In this document: positions 35,848-44,838 of the stretch, one piece after another
How positions within the stretch are numbered: the first letter of the stretch is position 1
Layout: every line of letters begins with the position of its first letter
NCBI RefSeq assembly: GCF_003994255.1
Contig: NZ_ML133857.1
Coordinates: 124,001-188,000 of the forward strand
Source of the DNA: Brachybacterium paraconglomeratum
GTDB taxonomy: Bacteria; Actinomycetota; Actinomycetes; Actinomycetales; Dermabacteraceae
Length of the DNA stretch: 64,000 nt
Direction: 5' to 3'
Position numbers and translations under genes: made by a program
Notes under the pieces: model-generated
Database searches by the model: none
What the model was told of the DNA's origin: nothing
What the model saw: the letters and a program-made list of their open reading frames with translations, nothing else

Positions 35848-36680
35848 GGACCACGACGCTCGAGAACACCCTGCGGGACCTGGACCCCGCTCCGCCGACA
35901 GGTGAGGGGCGCCCGGCACGGGCCGATGCAGATCTCCACCGGATCCTCGCCACCCCGCGCGACGGCGGCGACCGCTCCGATCACCTGTCTGTCAGCGACC
36001 GTCCTGCCGTCGGCGCCCGCCCGCTCGTCGGCCGTCCTCGACGTGCGCGATGGCGCGCCGGGCTGGTCGCCGTCGCCGCGGCGACGCTGATCGTGACGAC
36101 GGGCGTGGTCGGAGTCGACATCCTGCGGCCCACCACGGCTTCCGCGACATGGACACCGGTCGGGGATGCCGTCCCCGCCGATGCCCCCGGAGCGCGGCAG
36201 TGCGTGCAGTGGTGGCAGGTCGAGTCCTCCGCGCTCCGACCGGTCCTGCAGGAGCGGCGCGGGGACACCACCCTGGTCCTCGGCGTCGACGACCAGGGCC
36301 GCGAGCTGCTGTGCACCGCGACCCTGACCGACGGGCAGGAGCCGACCGGAGGGATGACCTCGCTGACAGAGCCGGGTGCTGCGCCCCCGGCGGCCGGAGA
36401 CGTCGCCGTGACCGTCGTGATGACCACGTTTCAGGAGGCCATGCTGCAGAACGGGTGGCAGGCCGAAGGATCCACGGCTGTCGCCGGCGACGTCGGGGAG
36501 GACGTGACACGGGTGGTGCTCGAGACCGGCGCAGGGCCGGTCGAGGCGAGTCTCGCCGAGGGCCGCTTCGCTGCCTGGTGGCCGATCGAGGACGACTCCG
36601 ACCCCCACCCCGAGGTGCGTGCGCAGATCACCACCGCCGACGGGGAGACCCGGACCGTGACGCTGCGCGAGCGGGGCTGA
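35844..36680 (+). CDS. Membrane protein paired with ECF sigma factor (possible anti-sigma factor)
   Basis: This 278-residue protein has an N-terminal cytoplasmic segment (1-70), one transmembrane helix (about 72-94, GLVAVAAATLIVTTGVVGV) and an extracellular domain with Trp-rich QCVQWWQVESS and WWPIEDDSD. Its position after an ECF sigma gene, with an ATGA overlap, matches actinobacterial sigma/anti-sigma pairs of the CU044_5270 type. No zinc-binding HxxxCxxC motif is present, so it is not a ZAS-type anti-sigma factor. The binding role is inference. Confidence 0.65.
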   Translation: MRTTTLENTLRDLDPAPPTGEGRPARADADLHRILATPRDGGDRSDHLSVSDRPAVGARPLVGRPRRARWRAGLVAVAAATLIVTTGVVGVDILRPTTASATWTPVGDAVPADAPGARQCVQWWQVESSALRPVLQERRGDTTLVLGVDDQGRELLCTATLTDGQEPTGGMTSLTEPGAAPPAAGDVAVTVVMTTFQEAMLQNGWQAEGSTAVAGDVGEDVTRVVLETGAGPVEASLAEGRFAAWWPIEDDSDPHPEVRAQITTADGETRTVTLRERG

Positions 36681-36705
36681 CCCGGCGGGGCCGTAGAGTC
36701 GGGGC

Positions 36706-37497
36706 ATGCCGCTGCCCACCGCCGCCGCCCCGACCGAGGTGCGTCTCGCGCACTGCCTGCTCGACGCCGACGGCGCCGTGCTCTCCGCCTCCCGTGCCGA
36801 CGAGCCGTTCTACGCCGCGAGCACCATCAAGCTGCACGTGCTCCTGGCCGTGCTGCGCGCCGCCGAGCAGGGCGAGCTCGACCTCGAGACGGAGCTGGCC
36901 GCGACGTGCACCTTCACCGGCGCCGATGGGGAGGAGTTCATCCTGTCCGGCGACCACCTCGATCCCACCCACCCCGAGCCCGGCACCCCGATCGCGCTCC
37001 GGGCTCTCGCGACGAGGATGATCGACCGCTCCAGCAACGAGGCGACCGACCAGCTGCTCGAGCTCGTCGGCCTCGATGCCATCGCGGCGATCGTCGGTGA
37101 GCTGGGGCTCGGGGCGACCCGGGTCGAGAGGCTGATCGGGGACGCCGCGGCACTCGAGCGCGGCCTGACCAACGAGACCTCCGCCGCGGACCTCGCCCGC
37201 ACCATGCACCACCTCGTCGCCGGCCCCGGCCTCGCAGGCGACTCCCACGAGCTCGCCCTCGCGGCGCTGCACGCGCAGACGATCCCGATCATCGCCACGG
37301 TGCTGCGCGACGGCGTCCGATGGGGGTCGAAGTCCGGGTGGGTCGACGGGTACCGGCACGACGTCGCCTACGTCGAGGATCCCGCCGGGGCCGGGCGCCG
37401 GATCCTCGCGGTGATGACCGCGGGACTCGCGGAGGACGAGGCCGATGCGCGGATCACCGCACTCGCCGCGGAGCTCCTGCCCGGGCTCACCGCCTGA
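36706..37497 (+). CDS. Serine hydrolase, class A beta-lactamase-like
   Basis: This 263-residue protein has the penicilloyl-serine transferase motifs: SxxK at Ser39-Lys42 (AASTIKLHV), SSN at 109-111 (DRSSNEATDQ) and KSG near 209 (GSKSGWVDG). The usual class A Glu166 omega loop is not obvious; TNETSAADLARTM contains the nearest acidic residue. No signal peptide is visible, which is unusual for a beta-lactamase and suggests a cytoplasmic peptidase or esterase. Resistance cannot be inferred. It lies 25 bases after the putative anti-sigma gene. Confidence 0.78.
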   Translation: MPLPTAAAPTEVRLAHCLLDADGAVLSASRADEPFYAASTIKLHVLLAVLRAAEQGELDLETELAATCTFTGADGEEFILSGDHLDPTHPEPGTPIALRALATRMIDRSSNEATDQLLELVGLDAIAAIVGELGLGATRVERLIGDAAALERGLTNETSAADLARTMHHLVAGPGLAGDSHELALAALHAQTIPIIATVLRDGVRWGSKSGWVDGYRHDVAYVEDPAGAGRRILAVMTAGLAEDEADARITALAAELLPGLTA

Positions 37498-37507
37498 GCG
37501 AGGAGCC

Positions 37508-37972
37508 TCAGCGCGCGCGACGGGCCGCGGCGATGTCCGCGAGATCCTGCGCCATCGTCGGCTTCGAGGCGGCGAGCCCGAAGCGGGCCGAGGCGCCGTC
37601 GACCAGGGCTCGCGGCCCGCGCCGCAGCGGCAGCTCGGCGACGCTCTCGAGGCGCAGCTCGGTGTCCCCGTCCACGAGCTCCCGCAGCGTGAACACGGTG
37701 CGATAGCCGATCTCGCCCACCCCGGAGCGGATCACCGTGCGCTGCAGCGGCTCGGCCTCGACGACCTCGAGCTCCATCGTCCCGGTCATCCCCAGCATCG
37801 AGCGCGTCTCCCGCCAGCGGGTGCCCTCGGCGTAGGGACCGCCCGTGAGGATCTCGACCTCCTCCACCCCGGTGAGCACCTGCGGGGTCCCGGCGATGTC
37901 GGTGAGCACCTCCCAGACGGCCGCGGGCGGGGCGTCGACGGTGTGGACGAGCAGGAAACGAGGGGCGGTCAT
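37508..37972 (-). CDS. SRPBCC family protein
   Basis: This 154-residue protein has the START-like ligand-binding fold of polyketide cyclase/dehydrase type: VDAPPAAVWEVLTDIAGTPQ at the start, the strand WRETRSMLGMTGTMELEVVE, and a C-terminal helix LVDGASARFGLAASKPTMAQ. The ligand is unknown. It is on the minus strand after the murein-peptide operon but separated by a hairpin terminator, so it likely has its own promoter. Confidence 0.82.
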   Translation of the reverse strand: MTAPRFLLVHTVDAPPAAVWEVLTDIAGTPQVLTGVEEVEILTGGPYAEGTRWRETRSMLGMTGTMELEVVEAEPLQRTVIRSGVGEIGYRTVFTLRELVDGDTELRLESVAELPLRRGPRALVDGASARFGLAASKPTMAQDLADIAAARRAR

Positions 37973-37985
37973 GGCCCCGAGGGCA

Positions 37986-38033
37986 GGCCGCGCGCCGCCC
38001 GACGGGACGGAGCGTCCGACGGGCGGCGCGGCC
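37986..38033 (-). terminator. Intrinsic terminator after the NlpC/P60 gene
   Basis: A GC-rich stem of about 14 bp with a small bulge (outer arms at 37986-38001 and 38020-38033, inner GGACG/CGTCC) lies ten bases beyond the stop of the NlpC/P60 gene on the minus strand. Confidence 0.65.
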
Positions 38034-38042
38034 GCACGCGGC

Positions 38043-39131
38043 TCAGGCGTCGATCACGCGACGCGCCCCGGCGTACTCCCCGGTCGGGTCGTACTCGGTC
38101 AGCGACATGATCTCCACGCTGCGCGCCGCGTTCGGGGCCTGCATGATCAGGTCGTCCCCGAGGTACAGGGCGACGTGGCGGATCGAGTCGCCGCCCGGCT
38201 CCGTCGCGAAGAACACCAGGTCGCCGCGGCGCAGGTCCTCCCGCGCCACCTCCGCGAGACCGGAGTGGTTCATCTGGTCGCCGGCATCGCGGGCGATCCG
38301 GAGGCCGTGGTGATGGAAGAGCGTGTACGTGTACCCGGAGCAGTCGAAGCCCCAGGCGCTCACGCCCGCCCACAGATAGCGCAGGCCCAGGAAGCGCTCG
38401 CCGGTGGCGATCACGTCCTCGACCGTCGGGGTCGGCGGCTGCTCGCCCCGCGCCCGCACCGCCACGTCGCCGGAGGGCAGATAGGCCGGACCGGCACCGG
38501 GCACGGCGACCTTCACGGCCTTCGCGGTGCGGCCCAGAACAGGCAGGATCGTGTCGAAGGAGACGTCGATCCCGGGGTGGTTCCCGGACGGCGTCCCGGT
38601 GAGGGTGCTGGTCAGCGCGGTGACGGTCGCGGTCTGGGAGGTCTCGGCGCGGCGGGCGAAGCCCTCGTCGACCACGAGATGGGAGAGCGGCACCCAGCCG
38701 GGGTAGCCGCGCGGATCGCGCGGGGTGGACTGCGCGGTGACGACCACGTGCGCCCAGTCGCCGTCGATCTCGTCGACGATCACCTCGCTGCCGAGCACGG
38801 CCTGGCTCTCGAGCTCGCCCGTCAGCCAGCGCCGGGTCTCGGTGTCCTCCATGTTCGCGTTCCAGGCGTCGAGGTCGACGGGGGCCGACACCGCCGGGTC
38901 GTCGATCCCGGGCCGGTTCGTGCGCGGGTCGACCCACAGCGTCGTCGCGGAGACGGCGACGTGGGCGCGATCGCCCGGGGCGGGCGCCCTGCCGGCGGCG
39001 GGGCGCGGCGCGGGGGCGGCGGAGGCGGGACCGAGCGCGGCGAGGGAGGCGACGGCGAGGCCGGCGGTGCCGGTCGCGGCCAGGCGCAGCCCGTCGCGTC
39101 GCGTGAGGTCGGGGAATCGGCGGATGGTCAT
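38043..39131 (-). CDS. Secreted NlpC/P60 (C40) endopeptidase, YkfC-like
   Basis: This 362-residue protein has a Tat-like signal (TRRDGLRLAATGTAG, cut near ASA-AP at 38), two SH3-like regions (about 55-225) and a C-terminal NlpC/P60 domain with Cys264 (WGFDCSGYTY), a catalytic histidine in IRHVALYLGDD and a third residue near QAPNAAR. The layout is that of gamma-D-glutamyl-L-diamino-acid endopeptidases such as YkfC. Its neighbour is a dipeptide epimerase, as in Bacillus ykf, which supports a role in murein-peptide recycling. AAGGAGA precedes the ATG. Confidence 0.85.
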   Translation of the reverse strand: MTIRRFPDLTRRDGLRLAATGTAGLAVASLAALGPASAAPAPRPAAGRAPAPGDRAHVAVSATTLWVDPRTNRPGIDDPAVSAPVDLDAWNANMEDTETRRWLTGELESQAVLGSEVIVDEIDGDWAHVVVTAQSTPRDPRGYPGWVPLSHLVVDEGFARRAETSQTATVTALTSTLTGTPSGNHPGIDVSFDTILPVLGRTAKAVKVAVPGAGPAYLPSGDVAVRARGEQPPTPTVEDVIATGERFLGLRYLWAGVSAWGFDCSGYTYTLFHHHGLRIARDAGDQMNHSGLAEVAREDLRRGDLVFFATEPGGDSIRHVALYLGDDLIMQAPNAARSVEIMSLTEYDPTGEYAGARRVIDA

Positions 39132-39213
39132 GGCATCTCCTTCAGGGGGTCGGCGCCGGGGCGCCGACGGGGGAGGGGCGTGAGGGATCGGGGGCGGTCG
39201 GACAGCTGGCTGC

Positions 39214-40341
39214 TCACCGACCACCTCCCTCGGCATCCACGTCGGGGCGGAGCAGCTCGAGCCCGAGGCCGGGCCCGCCGGAAAGGCGCAGCACGCCGCG
39301 CTCCTGGACGATCCCGCCGCGGGGCAGCGCGGAGGCGAACCAGGCCGGCGGGTCCAGGTCGATCATCGTGATCGCCGGGTGCGCGAGCGCGAGGTGCGCG
39401 GCGGCCGTGATCGAGATGCGCGGCTCCATCATGGCCCCCAGCATGCAGTCGATCCCGGCCCGACGTGCCGCCTCGGCGACCTCGATCGCGCCGCGCAGCC
39501 CGCCGGTCTTGGCGAGCTTGATGTTCAGCAGGTCGCAGGCCCGCGCCTCGATGAGCCGGTGCGCATCGACCGCCGACCACACGGCCTCGTCGGCCATGAT
39601 CGGCAGGGACACGGCGGCGGTGACGCGGGCGAGGCCCTCCACGTCACCGGCCGCGACGGGCTGCTCGACGAGCTCGACGGGCAGGCCGTCCGCCTCGAAC
39701 CCGGTGATGATCTCGACCGCCTGCTCGGGCAGCCAGCCCTGGTTCGCATCCAACCGCAGCCGCGCCGACGGGGCCGCCTCGACGACCGCGGCGAGCCGCT
39801 CCCGGTCCTCGGCGATGTCGTGGCCGAGCTTGATCTTCAGGATCTCGTGCCCGGCCGCGACGGCCTCCCGCGCCCGCTCCGCCATGGTCGCCGGCTCCTC
39901 GAGGGAGACGGTCATGTCGTTGCGCATCGTCGACACGGCGCTGCCGCCCAGCAGCTCCACGAGCGGCCGCCCCGCCGCGCGGGCCCAGGCATCGTGGAGG
40001 GCCACCTCGAGCGCCGCCTTCGCGCTCGTCGCCCCGGGCATGGCCGCCGCGATCCGGGCGGAGAGCTCGCCGATCGTGCCCCGCGCGCCGCGCAGCGCGG
40101 CGCCGAGCGGCCCGTCGAGCGCGGCGAGGATGCTGGCGGCGTCCTCGCCGGTGACCGCGACGGTCTCCGCAGCCGAGCCCTGCCCGACCGCGCCGCCGGC
40201 GAGCTCCACCTCGGCGACCACGTACTCGACCGCCTCGGTGCGGCGGGCCGCCGTGACGAAGGGATGGCGCAGCGGCGCGCGGTGGCGGTGGCGGCGCACC
40301 GCCGCCACCTCGAGCACCGCCTGCTCAGCGCTCTGCTCCAT
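39214..40341 (-). CDS. L-Ala-D/L-Glu (dipeptide) epimerase
   Basis: This 375-residue enolase-superfamily enzyme has the lysine pair at 169/171 (ILKIKLG), metal ligands Asp198 (LRLDANQGW), Glu226 and Asp251 (ADEAVW), and a second-side lysine at 275 or 278 (NIKLAKTGG). The C-terminal MIDLDPP (DLD at 328-330) is the signature that binds the amino group of the dipeptide in Ala-Glu epimerases. It converts L-Ala-D-Glu from peptidoglycan to L-Ala-L-Glu. ATG at 40341 is assigned; a GTG at 40356 would overlap the DUF819 stop (GTGA) and is also plausible. Confidence 0.87.
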   Translation of the reverse strand: MEQSAEQAVLEVAAVRRHRHRAPLRHPFVTAARRTEAVEYVVAEVELAGGAVGQGSAAETVAVTGEDAASILAALDGPLGAALRGARGTIGELSARIAAAMPGATSAKAALEVALHDAWARAAGRPLVELLGGSAVSTMRNDMTVSLEEPATMAERAREAVAAGHEILKIKLGHDIAEDRERLAAVVEAAPSARLRLDANQGWLPEQAVEIITGFEADGLPVELVEQPVAAGDVEGLARVTAAVSLPIMADEAVWSAVDAHRLIEARACDLLNIKLAKTGGLRGAIEVAEAARRAGIDCMLGAMMEPRISITAAAHLALAHPAITMIDLDPPAWFASALPRGGIVQERGVLRLSGGPGLGLELLRPDVDAEGGGR

Positions 40342-40352
40342 GATCCCGCCGC

Positions 40353-41504
40353 TCACAGCGCCGACATGATCTGCGCGGCGGCGAGGCCGAGGAAGGTGCC
40401 CAGGAACGAGCCCATCAGCGCCATCAGCACGCCGACCGGCACGAGCTGGCGGTTGAAGGCGCTGGCCACGACCGGCGCAGAGGCGATCCCGCCGATGTTC
40501 GCGGTCGAGGAGACCGCGATCGAGAACAGGTCGGTGCGGGTGAGCTTGGCGTAGACGACCATGATCGCCAGGTGCACGAGCACCACCAGGAGACCGATCA
40601 GCAGGTACAGCGGCGCCTGCGTGAGCGCGGAGAAGTCGGAGCCCGCGGCGATCTGGCCGATCACGATGAACAGCATCAGCGTCGCGATCTCGGTGGAGCC
40701 GCCGATCCGTCCCAGCGGCGTCTGGGCGATCACGAGGCCGAGCACGGAGACGATGACGATGGTCCAGGTGGTCCCGTTGACGACGTCGCCCAGCTCCGGG
40801 AGGAGGCCGCCGACCCAGATCGCGAGGGTCGAGACGAAGATCGAGCCGAAGACGACGGTCGCGAGGGACTGGACGGTGATCGGCGCCTCCTCCGTCTCGA
40901 AGTCGTCGCCGTGGTCGATCAGATGCGTCGAGCGGGCCTTCGTGAAGCGGTCGAAGCGGCCGGAGATCGCGACGGAGGAGAAGGCGACGGTGAGCCAGAT
41001 CGAGTAGATGAGCGTGTCGGTGATCAGGGCGTAGCCGAAGATGTTCTCCGGCGCCTGGAGGATGTCCTGCACCGCGACCATGTTCGCGCTGCCGCCGGTC
41101 CAGGAGGCCAGCAGTGCGCCGAGCACCTTCCACGCCTCCGGGTGCAGGGCGCTCTGGAAGGCGAGGAACACGCCCACCATCGCCACGAACAGGGAGGCGG
41201 CGGAGACGGCGTAGGTCAGCAGCAGCCGCGGGCCGAGCTTGATGATGCGGCGCAGGTCGCAGCCGAACAGGAACAGGAGGATCATCGCCGGCAGGACGAC
41301 GTCCTTCACGGCGGCGATGGGGGCGCGGGTCGCATCGTCCTGCCCGAACACCCCCGCGGAGTTCAGGGCGGCGCACAGCAGGTACATCAGCACCATGCCG
41401 GGCACGTACTTGAACAGCTTCCAGCCGGTGGTGCGCTCGAGCACGATCAGCGCGCACGAGAGCGCCAGCAGGACGCCGAGCATCAGCAGTCCGTCGGTGA
41501 TCAC
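40353..41504 (-). CDS. DUF819 family membrane transporter, probable murein-peptide carrier
   Basis: This 383-residue protein has about ten transmembrane helices. AMILLFLFGCDLRRIIKLGPR, LLASWTGGSANMVAVQDIL and SSTANIGGIASAPVVASAF match the DUF819 family. Its position ahead of a dipeptide epimerase and a murein endopeptidase suggests it imports peptidoglycan peptides, which is inference. GTG at 41504 is preceded by GAGGAGACCCC. It follows a strong terminator on the same strand, so it should have its own promoter in the 41505-41560 stretch. Confidence 0.83.
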   Translation of the reverse strand: MITDGLLMLGVLLALSCALIVLERTTGWKLFKYVPGMVLMYLLCAALNSAGVFGQDDATRAPIAAVKDVVLPAMILLFLFGCDLRRIIKLGPRLLLTYAVSAASLFVAMVGVFLAFQSALHPEAWKVLGALLASWTGGSANMVAVQDILQAPENIFGYALITDTLIYSIWLTVAFSSVAISGRFDRFTKARSTHLIDHGDDFETEEAPITVQSLATVVFGSIFVSTLAIWVGGLLPELGDVVNGTTWTIVIVSVLGLVIAQTPLGRIGGSTEIATLMLFIVIGQIAAGSDFSALTQAPLYLLIGLLVVLVHLAIMVVYAKLTRTDLFSIAVSSTANIGGIASAPVVASAFNRQLVPVGVLMALMGSFLGTFLGLAAAQIMSAL

Positions 41505-41561
41505 GGGGTCTCCTCGGTGAGTGGGGAAGGGGTGCGGCCGTGCCCCCGGCGGCTGCGGGGA

Positions 41562-41622
41562 CAAAAAAATCGGAAGCACCGGGAACCGGCGCCTCGGGCG
41601 AGGCGCGGTGCGGTGCTTCCGA
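41562..41622 (-). terminator. Strong intrinsic terminator with U-tract
   Basis: On the minus strand, an 11-bp outer stem CGGAAGCACCG (41611-41621 read in reverse, pairing with 41571-41581) encloses a second GGCGCCTCG/CGAGGC hairpin and is followed at once by ATTTTTTT (41563-41570). This is the only terminator in the window with a run of seven T. It lies between DUF3870 and DUF819. Confidence 0.85.
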
Positions 41623-41670
41623 CGGGATCCGGTTCGGTGAGGTTCCGGGCGGACGGCTGCGTGTATGCGG

Positions 41671-41997
41671 TTATGACTCCTGGTCGGGGAGGGCCGACAG
41701 GTCGCGGTACTTCGCGGCGGCGCTGCGCACGGCGGCGGCGAGAGCCTTCTGCGAGGACCCGTGGTACCTGTCGGTGATCGACTCCACCAGGGCGTCCTCC
41801 TCGAGCAGGGATCGACCGACCACCAGCTCGCGGACGAAGTCGACCGTGAGCGTCAGCGTGGCGGTGCAGTCGGCTGCCTGGATGACGTGGGTCTCAGTAT
41901 CGACGACGAGGCCGACGAAGAACAATCCCCACTGCGTCGTGATCGGATTGTTGCTCGGGGACTTCGCCTCGCCCGTGAGGTAGATCGTGCGGGTCAT
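41671..41997 (-). CDS. DUF3870 family protein
   Basis: This 108-residue protein matches the DUF3870 pattern: MTRTIYLTGEAKSPSNNPIT, FFVGLVVDTETHVI with ADCTATLTLT, FVRELVVGRSL and ITDRYHGSSQKALAAAV. It is cytoplasmic with no known activity. It is on the same strand as the murein-peptide operon but is separated from it by the strong terminator at 41562-41622. A functional link to the operon is possible but unproven. Confidence 0.8.
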   Translation of the reverse strand: MTRTIYLTGEAKSPSNNPITTQWGLFFVGLVVDTETHVIQAADCTATLTLTVDFVRELVVGRSLLEEDALVESITDRYHGSSQKALAAAVRSAAAKYRDLSALPDQES

Positions 41998-42047
41998 CCG
42001 GTGATCCTATGCGGGGTCCAGGAGGGCGGACGAGGTGGTCTCGACGC

Positions 42048-42086
42048 TGCGGCCCCGGACCGGGCGGTGCCCGGCCCGGGGCCGCA
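42048..42086 (-). terminator. Intrinsic terminator after the secreted repeat protein
   Basis: A GC-rich stem (11 bp plus 5 bp, interrupted by an A-C mismatch; 42048-42064 with 42070-42086) lies 20 bases downstream of the minus-strand gene at 42106. Confidence 0.65.
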
Positions 42087-42105
42087 GGTCGTGGGAGGGA
42101 GGAGG

Positions 42106-43089
42106 TCAGCGGAGGTTCGCCGGACCGGCCTGCTCCGCGGCCTTCTCGGCCTCGGCGCGACGCTCGTCGCGCTGGGTGTCGAGGCCCTGGGCGTGGTCCG
42201 CCGGGGCGGACTGCGCCATCAGCGCACGCTTCTGGGCGGCGGGCTGGAGATCGACGAACTGGCCGCCGAGCTCGCCGCGGACACGGTTCTCGGAGCCGGT
42301 GGGCGCGGGGTCGTTGCCCTCGCCGGTCAGGTCGCCGCGGATGATCGTGTCGGTGACGTCGACGCCGTCGGTGTTGTCCGAGGCGGTGACGTCGCCGCCG
42401 AAGTAGGTGGCGCCCTCGCAGGTGATCTTCTGGCCGCCGGAGCCGAGCTGCACGCCGGCGTTGCCGGTCAGCGACGCGTTCCCGTCGAGCTCGCCCGCGC
42501 AGAAGGTGGTGCCCTCGGTCGCGCCGGTGACGGTCAGGTCGCCGGCGAGGCTCGAGTCGAGGATGTCGGTGAACTCGGTGTTCTCGCTGGTCACGTTGCC
42601 GCCGATGGTGTTGCCGCTGAGGTGCACGAGGCCCTGGGCGACGTTCACGCGGCCGGAGATCGAGGAGTCGTAGGAGTACAGGAAGGGCGAGGCGCCCTCG
42701 GCCGCACGGCCGTTGTAGCTGCCCTCCACCGCGGACTCGTCGAGGTAGACGCCGTAGCCGCCGTTGGAGACGACGTTGCCGGCGATCTCGGAGGTGGAGG
42801 CGTCGAAGTAGCCGTCGCCCTGGACGACGACGCGGCCGCCGACGGAGGAGTCGGTGATGAGGAGGTCGGCGCCGGCCTGGACGCGCACCTGGCCCTCGAC
42901 GGTGACGTCGGTGAGGACGCAGGACTTGTCCTTCGCGACGACGAGGTCGCCGGGGACGGTGACCGAGGAGGCCTCGCCGTCGCAGCGGGTGGTCAGGGCG
43001 GCGCTCGCGGAGCCGGCGGTCGCGGCGATGCCGGCGGCGGCGAGGGCCGCGGCGGAGAGCAGGGTCACGGAACGGGAGAGGGTGCGCAC
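42106..43089 (-). CDS. Secreted beta-helix-like repeat protein
   Basis: This 327-residue protein has a clear signal peptide (1-30, cleavage after SASA). Residues 45-240 form short beta-rich repeats of the type G-x-V-x-V-x-x-G with Asn and Ser turns (GQVRVQAGADLLITDSSVGG, then GRVVVQGDGYFDASTSEIAG), like polymer-forming or pectate-lyase-type helices. Three or more cysteines are scattered. The C-terminal 60 residues are charged and helical. No LPXTG or lipobox is present, so it is likely released. The family is not recognised. AAGGAGCCCC precedes the ATG. Confidence 0.7.
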   Translation of the reverse strand: MRTLSRSVTLLSAAALAAAGIAATAGSASAALTTRCDGEASSVTVPGDLVVAKDKSCVLTDVTVEGQVRVQAGADLLITDSSVGGRVVVQGDGYFDASTSEIAGNVVSNGGYGVYLDESAVEGSYNGRAAEGASPFLYSYDSSISGRVNVAQGLVHLSGNTIGGNVTSENTEFTDILDSSLAGDLTVTGATEGTTFCAGELDGNASLTGNAGVQLGSGGQKITCEGATYFGGDVTASDNTDGVDVTDTIIRGDLTGEGNDPAPTGSENRVRGELGGQFVDLQPAAQKRALMAQSAPADHAQGLDTQRDERRAEAEKAAEQAGPANLR

Positions 43090-43274
43090 TGGGGCTCCTT
43101 GGGCGCCGCGCCGGGCAGGGCGGGGCTGTGGGGGTTCGATAGGGGTGCGTCACGACCGTAGCGACTCGCATCACACCGGACAATCGATTCGGCCAGATTC
43201 GCCGGAGTTCACCAAGATTTCCCCTGCTCGTGCCCCGGGCGACGAGCTCTCGTCCCCCTCGACCCGGCCGCAGG

Positions 43275-44753
43275 TCAGAGCGGGAGGCGCACGTAGGTCG
43301 TCTCGAGGTACTCGGCGAGCCCCTCGTGGGAGCCCTCCCGGCCCAGCCCCGACTCCTTCACCCCGCCGAAGGGGGCCGAGGGGTCGGAGCCCACGCCCAG
43401 GTTCACCGCGACCATCCCCGACTCGAGCCGTCCGGTGACGGCCGTGACCTCGCCGAGGTCCTCGCCCATCACGTAGGACATCAGCCCGAACTCGGTGGCG
43501 TTGGCCGCCGCGATCATCTCCTCGACGTCGTCCAGCACCGTGATCGGCGCGAGCGGGCCGAAGATCTCCTCGCGCTGCACGCGGGCATCGCGCGGCACGT
43601 CGCCGAGCACCGTCGCCTCGTGGAAGAAGCCCCCGCCCTCGCCGGTGCCGCCGCCGGTGAGGACCTTCGCGCCGCGCTCGACCGCGTCGGCCATCAGCTC
43701 CTGGACGGAGTCGACGGCGGCCCGGTCGATCAGCGGGCCGAGGGTCGTGGCGGGATCCGCGCCGGGGCCGAGCACGAGCTGCTCGGTGCGCTCGACCAGC
43801 CGGTCGGTGAACTCCTGCGCGACGGAGGAGTGGACGTAGAACCGGTTCGCGGCGGTGCAGGCCTCGCCGTTGTTGCGGAACTTCGCGAGCATCGCCGCCT
43901 CGACCGCGGTCTCCACGTCGGCCGAGGGGAGGACCAGGAAGGGAGCATTGCCGCCGAGCTCCATCGAGGTGCGCAGCACGTGTTCGGCGGACTGCGCGAT
44001 GAGGGTGCGGCCCACCGCGGTGGAGCCGGTGAAGGAGACCTTCCGCAGCCGCGGATCGGCCATCAGCGTCGAGGACAGGCCCTTCGAGTCGCTCGTGACC
44101 ACGCAGTTCACCACCCCGTCGGGCACGCCGGCCTCGGCGAGGATCGCCATCAGCGCCAGCGAGGTCAGGGGCGTCTTCTGCGCGGGCTTGAGCACCACGG
44201 TGCAGCCGGCCGCGAGGGCCGGGCCGATCTTCCGCGTCCCCATCGACAGCGGGAAGTTCCACGGCGTGATCAGGAGGGTGGGGCCGACGGGCCGGACCGT
44301 GGTGAGCACGGCGTGGTCGGCGGCGGGGGCGTGGCGGAACCGGCCGGGCTCGCGCACCGCCTCCTCGCTGAACCAGCGCAGGAACTCCGCGCCGTAGGAG
44401 ACCTCGCCGTACGCCTCGGCGAGCGGCTTGCCCATCTCCAGGGTCATCAGCGCCGCGAGGTCGTCGGCCCGCTCGTGGCACAGCTCGTAGGCGCGGCGCA
44501 GGATCTCCGAGCGCTCGCGCGGCGTGGTCGCTGCCCAGTCCGCCTGCGCGGCGCAGGCGGCGTCCAGGGCCTTCGCGCCGACGGAGGCGGCGTCGGCGTC
44601 GACCACGCGGGTCAGCGCCGCGCCGGTGGCGGGGTCGATCACCTCGAGTGCGGCGGTGCCGCCGAGGAAGCGGCCGCCGACGAAGGAGCTGGTCGGGGTG
44701 CGCTCGAGCACCTCCGCGATCCGGGTGGGGGTGAGGGCGGGCTGCTGGGGCAT
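43275..44753 (-). CDS. gabD: NAD(P)-dependent succinate-semialdehyde dehydrogenase
   Basis: This 492-residue aldehyde dehydrogenase has Cys299 (NNGEACTAANRF) as the nucleophile, Glu265 (SMELGGNAP) as the base and the coenzyme motif FTGSTAVGRTLI. PWNFPLSMGTRKIGPALAAG is the N-terminal signature. It matches the SSADH family by length and motifs; related aldehydes may also be used. No GABA transaminase is adjacent. GAGGTTCCG precedes the ATG. Confidence 0.85.
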   Translation of the reverse strand: MPQQPALTPTRIAEVLERTPTSSFVGGRFLGGTAALEVIDPATGAALTRVVDADAASVGAKALDAACAAQADWAATTPRERSEILRRAYELCHERADDLAALMTLEMGKPLAEAYGEVSYGAEFLRWFSEEAVREPGRFRHAPAADHAVLTTVRPVGPTLLITPWNFPLSMGTRKIGPALAAGCTVVLKPAQKTPLTSLALMAILAEAGVPDGVVNCVVTSDSKGLSSTLMADPRLRKVSFTGSTAVGRTLIAQSAEHVLRTSMELGGNAPFLVLPSADVETAVEAAMLAKFRNNGEACTAANRFYVHSSVAQEFTDRLVERTEQLVLGPGADPATTLGPLIDRAAVDSVQELMADAVERGAKVLTGGGTGEGGGFFHEATVLGDVPRDARVQREEIFGPLAPITVLDDVEEMIAAANATEFGLMSYVMGEDLGEVTAVTGRLESGMVAVNLGVGSDPSAPFGGVKESGLGREGSHEGLAEYLETTYVRLPL

Positions 44754-44838
44754 CGGAACCTCCTGCGTCGACGGGTGCTCCCTCCAGTCTGCACCCGCCC
44801 CGCCGTGCCCGGTCGTTCTCAGCCGTGCCCGGCCGGGC

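Follow-up and report, generated by a model that had tools for sequence, protein, structure and literature searches.

A conserved gene cluster of a DUF819 carrier with YkfB- and YkfC-like enzymes and its predicted role in murein dipeptide salvage

Gene layout and predicted enzymes of the locus

The analysed stretch of Brachybacterium paraconglomeratum DNA, further referred to as the window, is 64 kb long (bases 124001–188000 of its contig) and belongs to an assembly of 3.78 Mb. The subject of this work is a group of four genes at 38043–41997 of the window, which includes a gene for a putative carrier of the DUF819 family. A preliminary description had presented these genes as a co-directional murein-peptide recycling operon, and their common orientation was borne out by coordinates and by a Pfam match for each of them. 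In the order of transcription, the minus strand encodes a DUF3870 protein of 108 amino acids (41671–41997; PF12986, 2.2e-32), a DUF819 carrier of 383 amino acids (40353–41504; PF05684, 1.3e-96, with 324 bits where the cut-off is 27), an enolase-superfamily epimerase (39214–40356) and an NlpC/P60 protein (38043–39131). The DUF819 gene starts with GTG behind GAGGAG, and the epimerase gene starts either with GTG at 40356, overlapping the DUF819 stop codon, or with ATG at 40341.

The closest solved relative of the epimerase is 1JPM, the L-Ala-D/L-Glu epimerase YkfB (5.6e-73, with 1.6e-58 for the next relative). The DLD signature noticed previously was read in the sequence as D333-L-D335, and both aspartates align with D321 and D323 of YkfB, a DxD pair which presumably plays a role in specificity. 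The window residues K176 and K280 align with K162 and K268, given as the catalytic lysines of YkfB in PMC5808125, so both are kept. The protein appears to be a YkfB-like L-Ala-D/L-Glu epimerase, as predicted from these similarities.

The nearest solved relative of the NlpC/P60 protein is 3H41, YkfC of Bacillus cereus (BcYkfC; 1.3e-73). Besides PF00877, the protein matches the YkfC-named SH3b profile PF23795 above the cut-off, and the SH3b profile PF18348 falls just under it (23.7 vs 25.8). In PMC2954226, Tyr118 and Asp256 serve to define the YkfC subfamily, which demands a free N-terminal L-Ala. With a numbering offset derived in this analysis, the tyrosine of GYPGW and the aspartate of ARDAG in the window protein correspond to Tyr118 and Asp256 of BcYkfC, and the catalytic cysteine lies within a DCSG motif (FDCSGY at 262). 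The N-terminus carries an export signal, seen in the sequence, which we take to be of the twin-arginine type, in agreement with the earlier view of a secreted hydrolase. Among the relatives from the same family, the twin-arginine motif was found by a regular expression in 11 of 23 proteins and an RR pair by eye in four more, the chosen start being unreliable in several others. A hydrophobic N-terminus was detected in all 17 YkfC profile seeds, 16 of them from Bacillales (1.64 for the window protein against a threshold of 1.6). Export signals were present on YkfC homologues in both phyla, in the actinobacterial family and in Bacillales.

The four genes had been regarded as one unit. In the strict sense this holds only for the last three, DUF819, the epimerase and NlpC/P60, since a strong intrinsic terminator (41563–41621, minus strand) separates DUF3870 from DUF819. 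The terminator comprises a hairpin at 41571–41621 followed by A and seven T residues (−42.4 kcal/mol, z −7.3). A run of at least six T was found at the same site in 20 of the 25 relatives with both DUF3870 and DUF819, and the 26 loci of relatives, 324,560 bases in total, contain only 22 T or A runs of this length. In an alignment of the window with 19 relatives that have the T run (20 rows), the helix is supported by covariation, as 9 of 18 pairs changed on both sides, compared with 3.1 in shuffles, and five pairs of the outer helix were invariant; five relatives without a run of five T and L044 with a duplicated DUF3870 gene were left out, so that the count describes existing terminators and not every relative. 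In Bacillales, 19 of 22 loci likewise had a terminator-like hairpin at this position; in 14 of the 19 its stem ended less than 50 bases from the start of DUF819, so that a promoter would hardly fit in between. The terminator probably lowers or gates the expression of the carrier genes relative to DUF3870 through regulated or partial read-through, or else a promoter may overlap the hairpin. The search for sigma-70 promoters found none and was uninformative in this high-GC genome, and an Rfam search for a riboswitch before DUF819 gave no match at E up to 1 in the 36500–44800 region. A generic repeated palindrome was ruled out, as the exact pattern occurs at one site in the whole assembly.

Distribution and linkage of DUF819

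Among 47 genomes of the window's own family, DUF819 was present in 27, DUF3870 in 26 (the DUF819 set minus G430) and an orthologous epimerase (E < 1e-49) in 28 (the DUF819 set plus G412). The three genes come and go together in this family. In G412 an epimerase was found but no DUF819 match, and in G430 the epimerase is in two pieces and a DUF3870 match is missing. All four genes in the DUF3870–DUF819–epimerase–NlpC order were found in 23 of the 26 loci of relatives, with some genes in two pieces; L040 is devoid of NlpC, L049 of DUF3870, and the contig of L062 ends inside the epimerase gene. Three of the 26 loci (L060, L061 and L062) were shorter than 12 kb. The grouping, which also recurs in other phyla, is beyond chance. 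In the phylum sample, DUF819 was rare (10 of 396 genomes, one of them that of the window), and in a FastTree phylogeny the DUF819 proteins of the window's family grouped with those of Bacillales with a support of 0.93, a pattern that transfer between these lineages would give.

A clade of DUF819 proteins, including those of the window's family, was delimited by a score threshold of 270. In a single FastTree run with 152 sequences, the 124 proteins scoring at least 400 were monophyletic with a support of only 0.69. From 299 loci in named genomes, the 80 most similar to a Fusobacterium protein were used, which oversampled the clade among them. Leaving out four DNA-level repeats (L193 equal to L099; L116, L118 and L120 repeating L115 and L119) from 135 loci gave 131 distinct ones. 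At least one peptide-catabolism gene was located within 6 kb in 127 of them, an epimerase gene in 105 (co-directional with DUF819 in 104) and a DUF3870 gene in 84.

The cluster had been described as unusual and proved instead to be recurrent. All four genes in the order seen in the window were present in 15 of 22 Bacillales loci, and rearranged versions were found in Clostridia, Fusobacterium and Synergistota. Most Peptoniphilus loci and one Fusobacterium vincentii record had the order epimerase, DUF819, beta-lactamase-like protein and DUF3870; many loci of Lachnospiraceae and Oscillospiraceae also encoded an M20 peptidase along with a transglutaminase-like protein, the M20 gene lying inside the cluster in 29 of 58 clostridial-type loci. 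A Fusobacterium gene of 491 codons, taken by eye for NlpC/P60, gave no Pfam match at 1e-3 and was counted apart as "NlpF". In Synergistota, DUF819 was detected in 38 of 149 genomes. The examined loci, 30 of 48 matches with flanks of at most 1.5 kb, included 26 from the clade, 24 of which contained a partner enzyme and 15 an epimerase.

Outside the clade the picture was different. DUF819 was found in 22 of 299 genomes of the Bacillota sample, which gave 24 matches, and 20 places were examined; the weak matches in G707 and G609 and the linked DUF819 copy (L141) of the centre genome G442 were left out, and a second Bacillota search used the same sample with a different centre genome. Only two of the 20 places belonged to the clade, L181 with the four-gene cluster and L175 with an M20-family peptidase. 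The preliminary description had stated that a separation of DUF819 and epimerase genes in most genomes would refute it. At the Pfam level the two are indeed separated in most genomes, with an epimerase at 1 of 20 Bacillota DUF819 regions, and the linkage is a property of one DUF819 clade, not of DUF819 at large. No epimerase was found near DUF819 at any of the 34 non-clade loci, three of which (two of 18 from Bacillota and one of nine from Actinomycetota) gave no DUF819 match with the profile.

Dipeptidases of other types were found instead at some of these distant loci. A gene for an M19 membrane dipeptidase adjoined DUF819 in 5 of the 18 non-clade Bacillota loci, four of the pairs being co-directional with gaps of 16–49 bases and one divergent. 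A gene for an M15 D-Ala-D-Ala dipeptidase was located near DUF819 in two of the 18, adjacent in one and two genes away in the other, in the centre genome G442. The loci with either dipeptidase were L174, L176, L177, L182, L184, L173 and L178.

Predicted structures and accessory genes

An AlphaFold model of DUF819 was built from 53 sequences of the window and related loci (predicted local distance difference test, pLDDT, 88; predicted template modelling score, pTM, 0.84). Foldseek listed CitS as the top match (1.8e-6). After realignment, AspT was the best (Z 26.1, root-mean-square deviation, rmsd, 3.6 over 349 residues), followed by CitS (Z 23.2, rmsd 4.8, 374 residues), and Na+/H+ antiporters stayed well under both (Z 13 or less). 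The predicted fold resembles these CPA/AT group carriers over nearly the whole length, at 12–14% identity in the realigned rows; the DUF819 alignment, searched against PDB sequences, gave no match at E up to 1. DUF819 is predicted to be a carrier of the elevator type with an AspT/CitS fold. The AspT/CitS group is known for amino acid or carboxylate substrates and is not known to carry dipeptides. L-Ala-D-Glu has an ammonium group along with two carboxylates and would be a plausible substrate for a site of this type. The family had earlier been placed in the CPA-reentrant fold type and modelled on a CitS template, according to PMC8396727. No substrate of DUF819 was found assigned in the open full-text literature searched, including the accessible parts of PMC12671195, PMC8396727, PMC2954226, PMC3305447 and PMC5808125 (subscription papers lay outside the search).

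DUF3870 had been proposed as a partner of the carrier. However, no DUF3870 was found anywhere in 16 of 18 genomes chosen for its absence near DUF819, several of which are metagenome bins of unstated completeness, and DUF3870 also occurs in other catabolic operons: in Ilyobacter, where it lies upstream of genes for acetyl-CoA hydrolase and methylmalonyl-CoA mutase, and in Peribacillus, where it lies beside a muconate cycloisomerase family gene. It therefore seems dispensable for the cluster and seems to be an accessory rather than a needed partner. The AlphaFold model of DUF3870 (pLDDT 88) has a predicted alpha/beta fold like that of IscU, which it matched over roughly 90 residues after realignment (Z about 8). 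Since domains of a lipoate ligase, CO dehydrogenase and aldehyde oxidase scored equally well, the model suggests a fold class only. IscU-type Fe-S scaffolds have three conserved cluster-ligand cysteines, whereas DUF3870 has a single nearly invariant one, C44. DUF3870 was also considered as a possible enolase N-terminal capping domain; chains of this kind appeared in Foldseek from rank 2 on (template modelling score about 0.4, E at least 0.018) and were not among the 50 top realigned rows, and the PDB sequence search with the DUF3870 alignment gave two chance-level rows only.

Downstream of the cluster and convergent to it, the plus strand encodes a class A beta-lactamase-like serine hydrolase (36706–37497; PF13354) in which no export signal is evident. 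The gene is a possible fifth member, as 23 of 26 relatives have a gene of this family within 6 kb of the cluster and the Fusobacterium and Peptoniphilus clusters contain one. Strict linkage to DUF819 was ruled out: the gene is present in 33 of the 47 family genomes, including 8 of the 20 without DUF819 (in one case as a fragment). Upstream of DUF3870, the minus strand encodes a secreted-looking protein of 327 amino acids (42106–43089), for which neither Pfam nor NCBIfam gave a match at 1e-3. Among eight neighbouring open reading frames scanned with Pfam (36706–44753), no match to an LD-carboxypeptidase or an ATP-binding cassette (ABC) protein was found.

Pathway model and comparison with known systems

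With a probability put at roughly 0.7, the cluster serves to recover the L-Ala-D-Glu end from stem peptides of murein, with DUF819 as the predicted importer. The exported YkfC-type endopeptidase would release L-Ala-D-Glu outside the cell. The dipeptide would then enter through DUF819, probably coupled to Na+ or exchanged for an amino acid, as the clade-wide linkage and the predicted fold suggest. Inside, the YkfB-type epimerase would convert it to L-Ala-L-Glu; L-Ala-D-Glu epimerase activity is known for the B. subtilis YkfB homologue. A dipeptidase, for which the M20 peptidase of the clostridial-type clusters is a candidate, would split the product. The preliminary claim of a murein-peptide pathway with DUF819 as the probable importer has moderate to good support from the clade linkage, the enzyme residues and the carrier fold.

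Several observations weigh against this interpretation. Transport of L-Ala-D-Glu is a prediction from linkage and fold, and a carrier fold alone gives a substrate class at best. The epimerase missed the NCBIfam equivalog cut-offs for epimerases (best 186.9 bits vs 500), the profiles were seeded from the same named loci and the window, which introduces circularity, and 26 of the 131 distinct clade loci had no epimerase nearby, although some flanks were short. Beyond the clade, none of the tested partners was seen at 11 of 18 Bacillota, nine distant actinobacterial (some on short contigs), four Synergistota and three plasmid loci, so that dipeptidase company covers a minority of the non-clade DUF819 loci. 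Finally, cytosolic-looking hydrolases replace the exported YkfC in some clusters, which suggests that some members of the clade import longer peptides.

The last point leads to an alternative in which DUF819 imports intact murein tri- or tetrapeptides that are trimmed inside, with the dipeptide as an internal intermediate. Many clostridial, Fusobacterium and some Synergistota clusters contain a transglutaminase-like or a beta-lactamase-like hydrolase, and a hydrophobic N-terminus above the threshold was found in none of the 26 and none of the 16 respective profile seeds, which would place the cutting there inside the cell. The two genes never occurred together in the 105 distinct clade loci outside the window's family (singly in 35 and 23), a figure inflated by shared ancestry, and such exclusion suggests a similar job, perhaps the cutting of murein peptides in the cytoplasm. 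In the window and the Bacillales seeds, however, the export signal of the endopeptidase suggests that the tripeptide would be cut before uptake, and this alternative is considered unlikely.

It is less probable still that DUF819 moves a product or a counter-solute, exporting or exchanging alanine, glutamate or a diamino acid, with peptides entering via ABC carriers. AspT, to which its model is structurally closest, exchanges aspartate for alanine, but no ABC peptide importer was noticed by eye among gene families common to at least 5 of 81 clustered loci (only some of them Pfam-scanned), and the seven distant DUF819 genes that adjoin or neighbour dipeptidase genes also speak against such a role. 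That the cluster handles another dipeptide is very improbable: enolase-superfamily dipeptide epimerases vary in specificity, and a relative from Thermotoga shows high activity towards L-Ala-D/L-Phe and -Tyr (PMC5808125), but the window epimerase is nearest to YkfB (5.6e-73 vs 1.6e-58) and is encoded beside a YkfC-type peptidase.

Import of L-Ala-D-Glu, if confirmed, would assign a substrate to carriers whose function has been obscure, would supply the exported-YkfC route with its missing importer, and would make cell-wall salvage in Gram-positives, gut anaerobes and Synergistota testable through one gene. The recurrence of different dipeptidases as neighbours is the best sign that the DUF819 family moves dipeptides. 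A wider proposal, held tentatively and at somewhat under even odds, is that all DUF819 proteins are secondary carriers of cell-wall-derived D-amino-acid dipeptides, each clade with its own enzyme: YkfB and M20 for L-Ala-D-Glu, VanX-type M15 for D-Ala-D-Ala and M19 for L,D-dipeptides. The CPA/AT group would then include, in DUF819, a family of dipeptide carriers, and the neighbouring dipeptidase would predict the substrate in other clades, such as that of the M15–DUF819 pair of Neisseria meningitidis reported in PMC12671195.

New in this analysis are the linkage across the clade, the dipeptidase genes next to some of the other DUF819 genes and the conserved terminator. The dpp-ykfABCD region of B. 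subtilis has the same epimerase and endopeptidase families as the window, with adjacent genes in both. According to PMC2954226, B. subtilis YkfC has no signal peptide and the ykf genes lie beside the Dpp ABC importer, whereas in the window the enzyme is exported and DUF819 takes the carrier's place. The preliminary description had ascribed an ABC-type or other carrier to Bacillus ykf; linkage to an ABC importer is the arrangement of B. subtilis, and 15 of 22 Bacillales loci have the DUF819 four-gene order. Another parallel is ykfB-ykfC-oppA of B. cereus, where, in the same source, YkfC has a signal peptide and YkfB has none, as in the route proposed here. For B. cereus, that paper proposed cleavage of murein peptides outside the cell and import of L-Ala-gamma-D-Glu. 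The next gene in B. cereus encodes an oppA-type binding protein, and in the window a DUF819 carrier is found instead.

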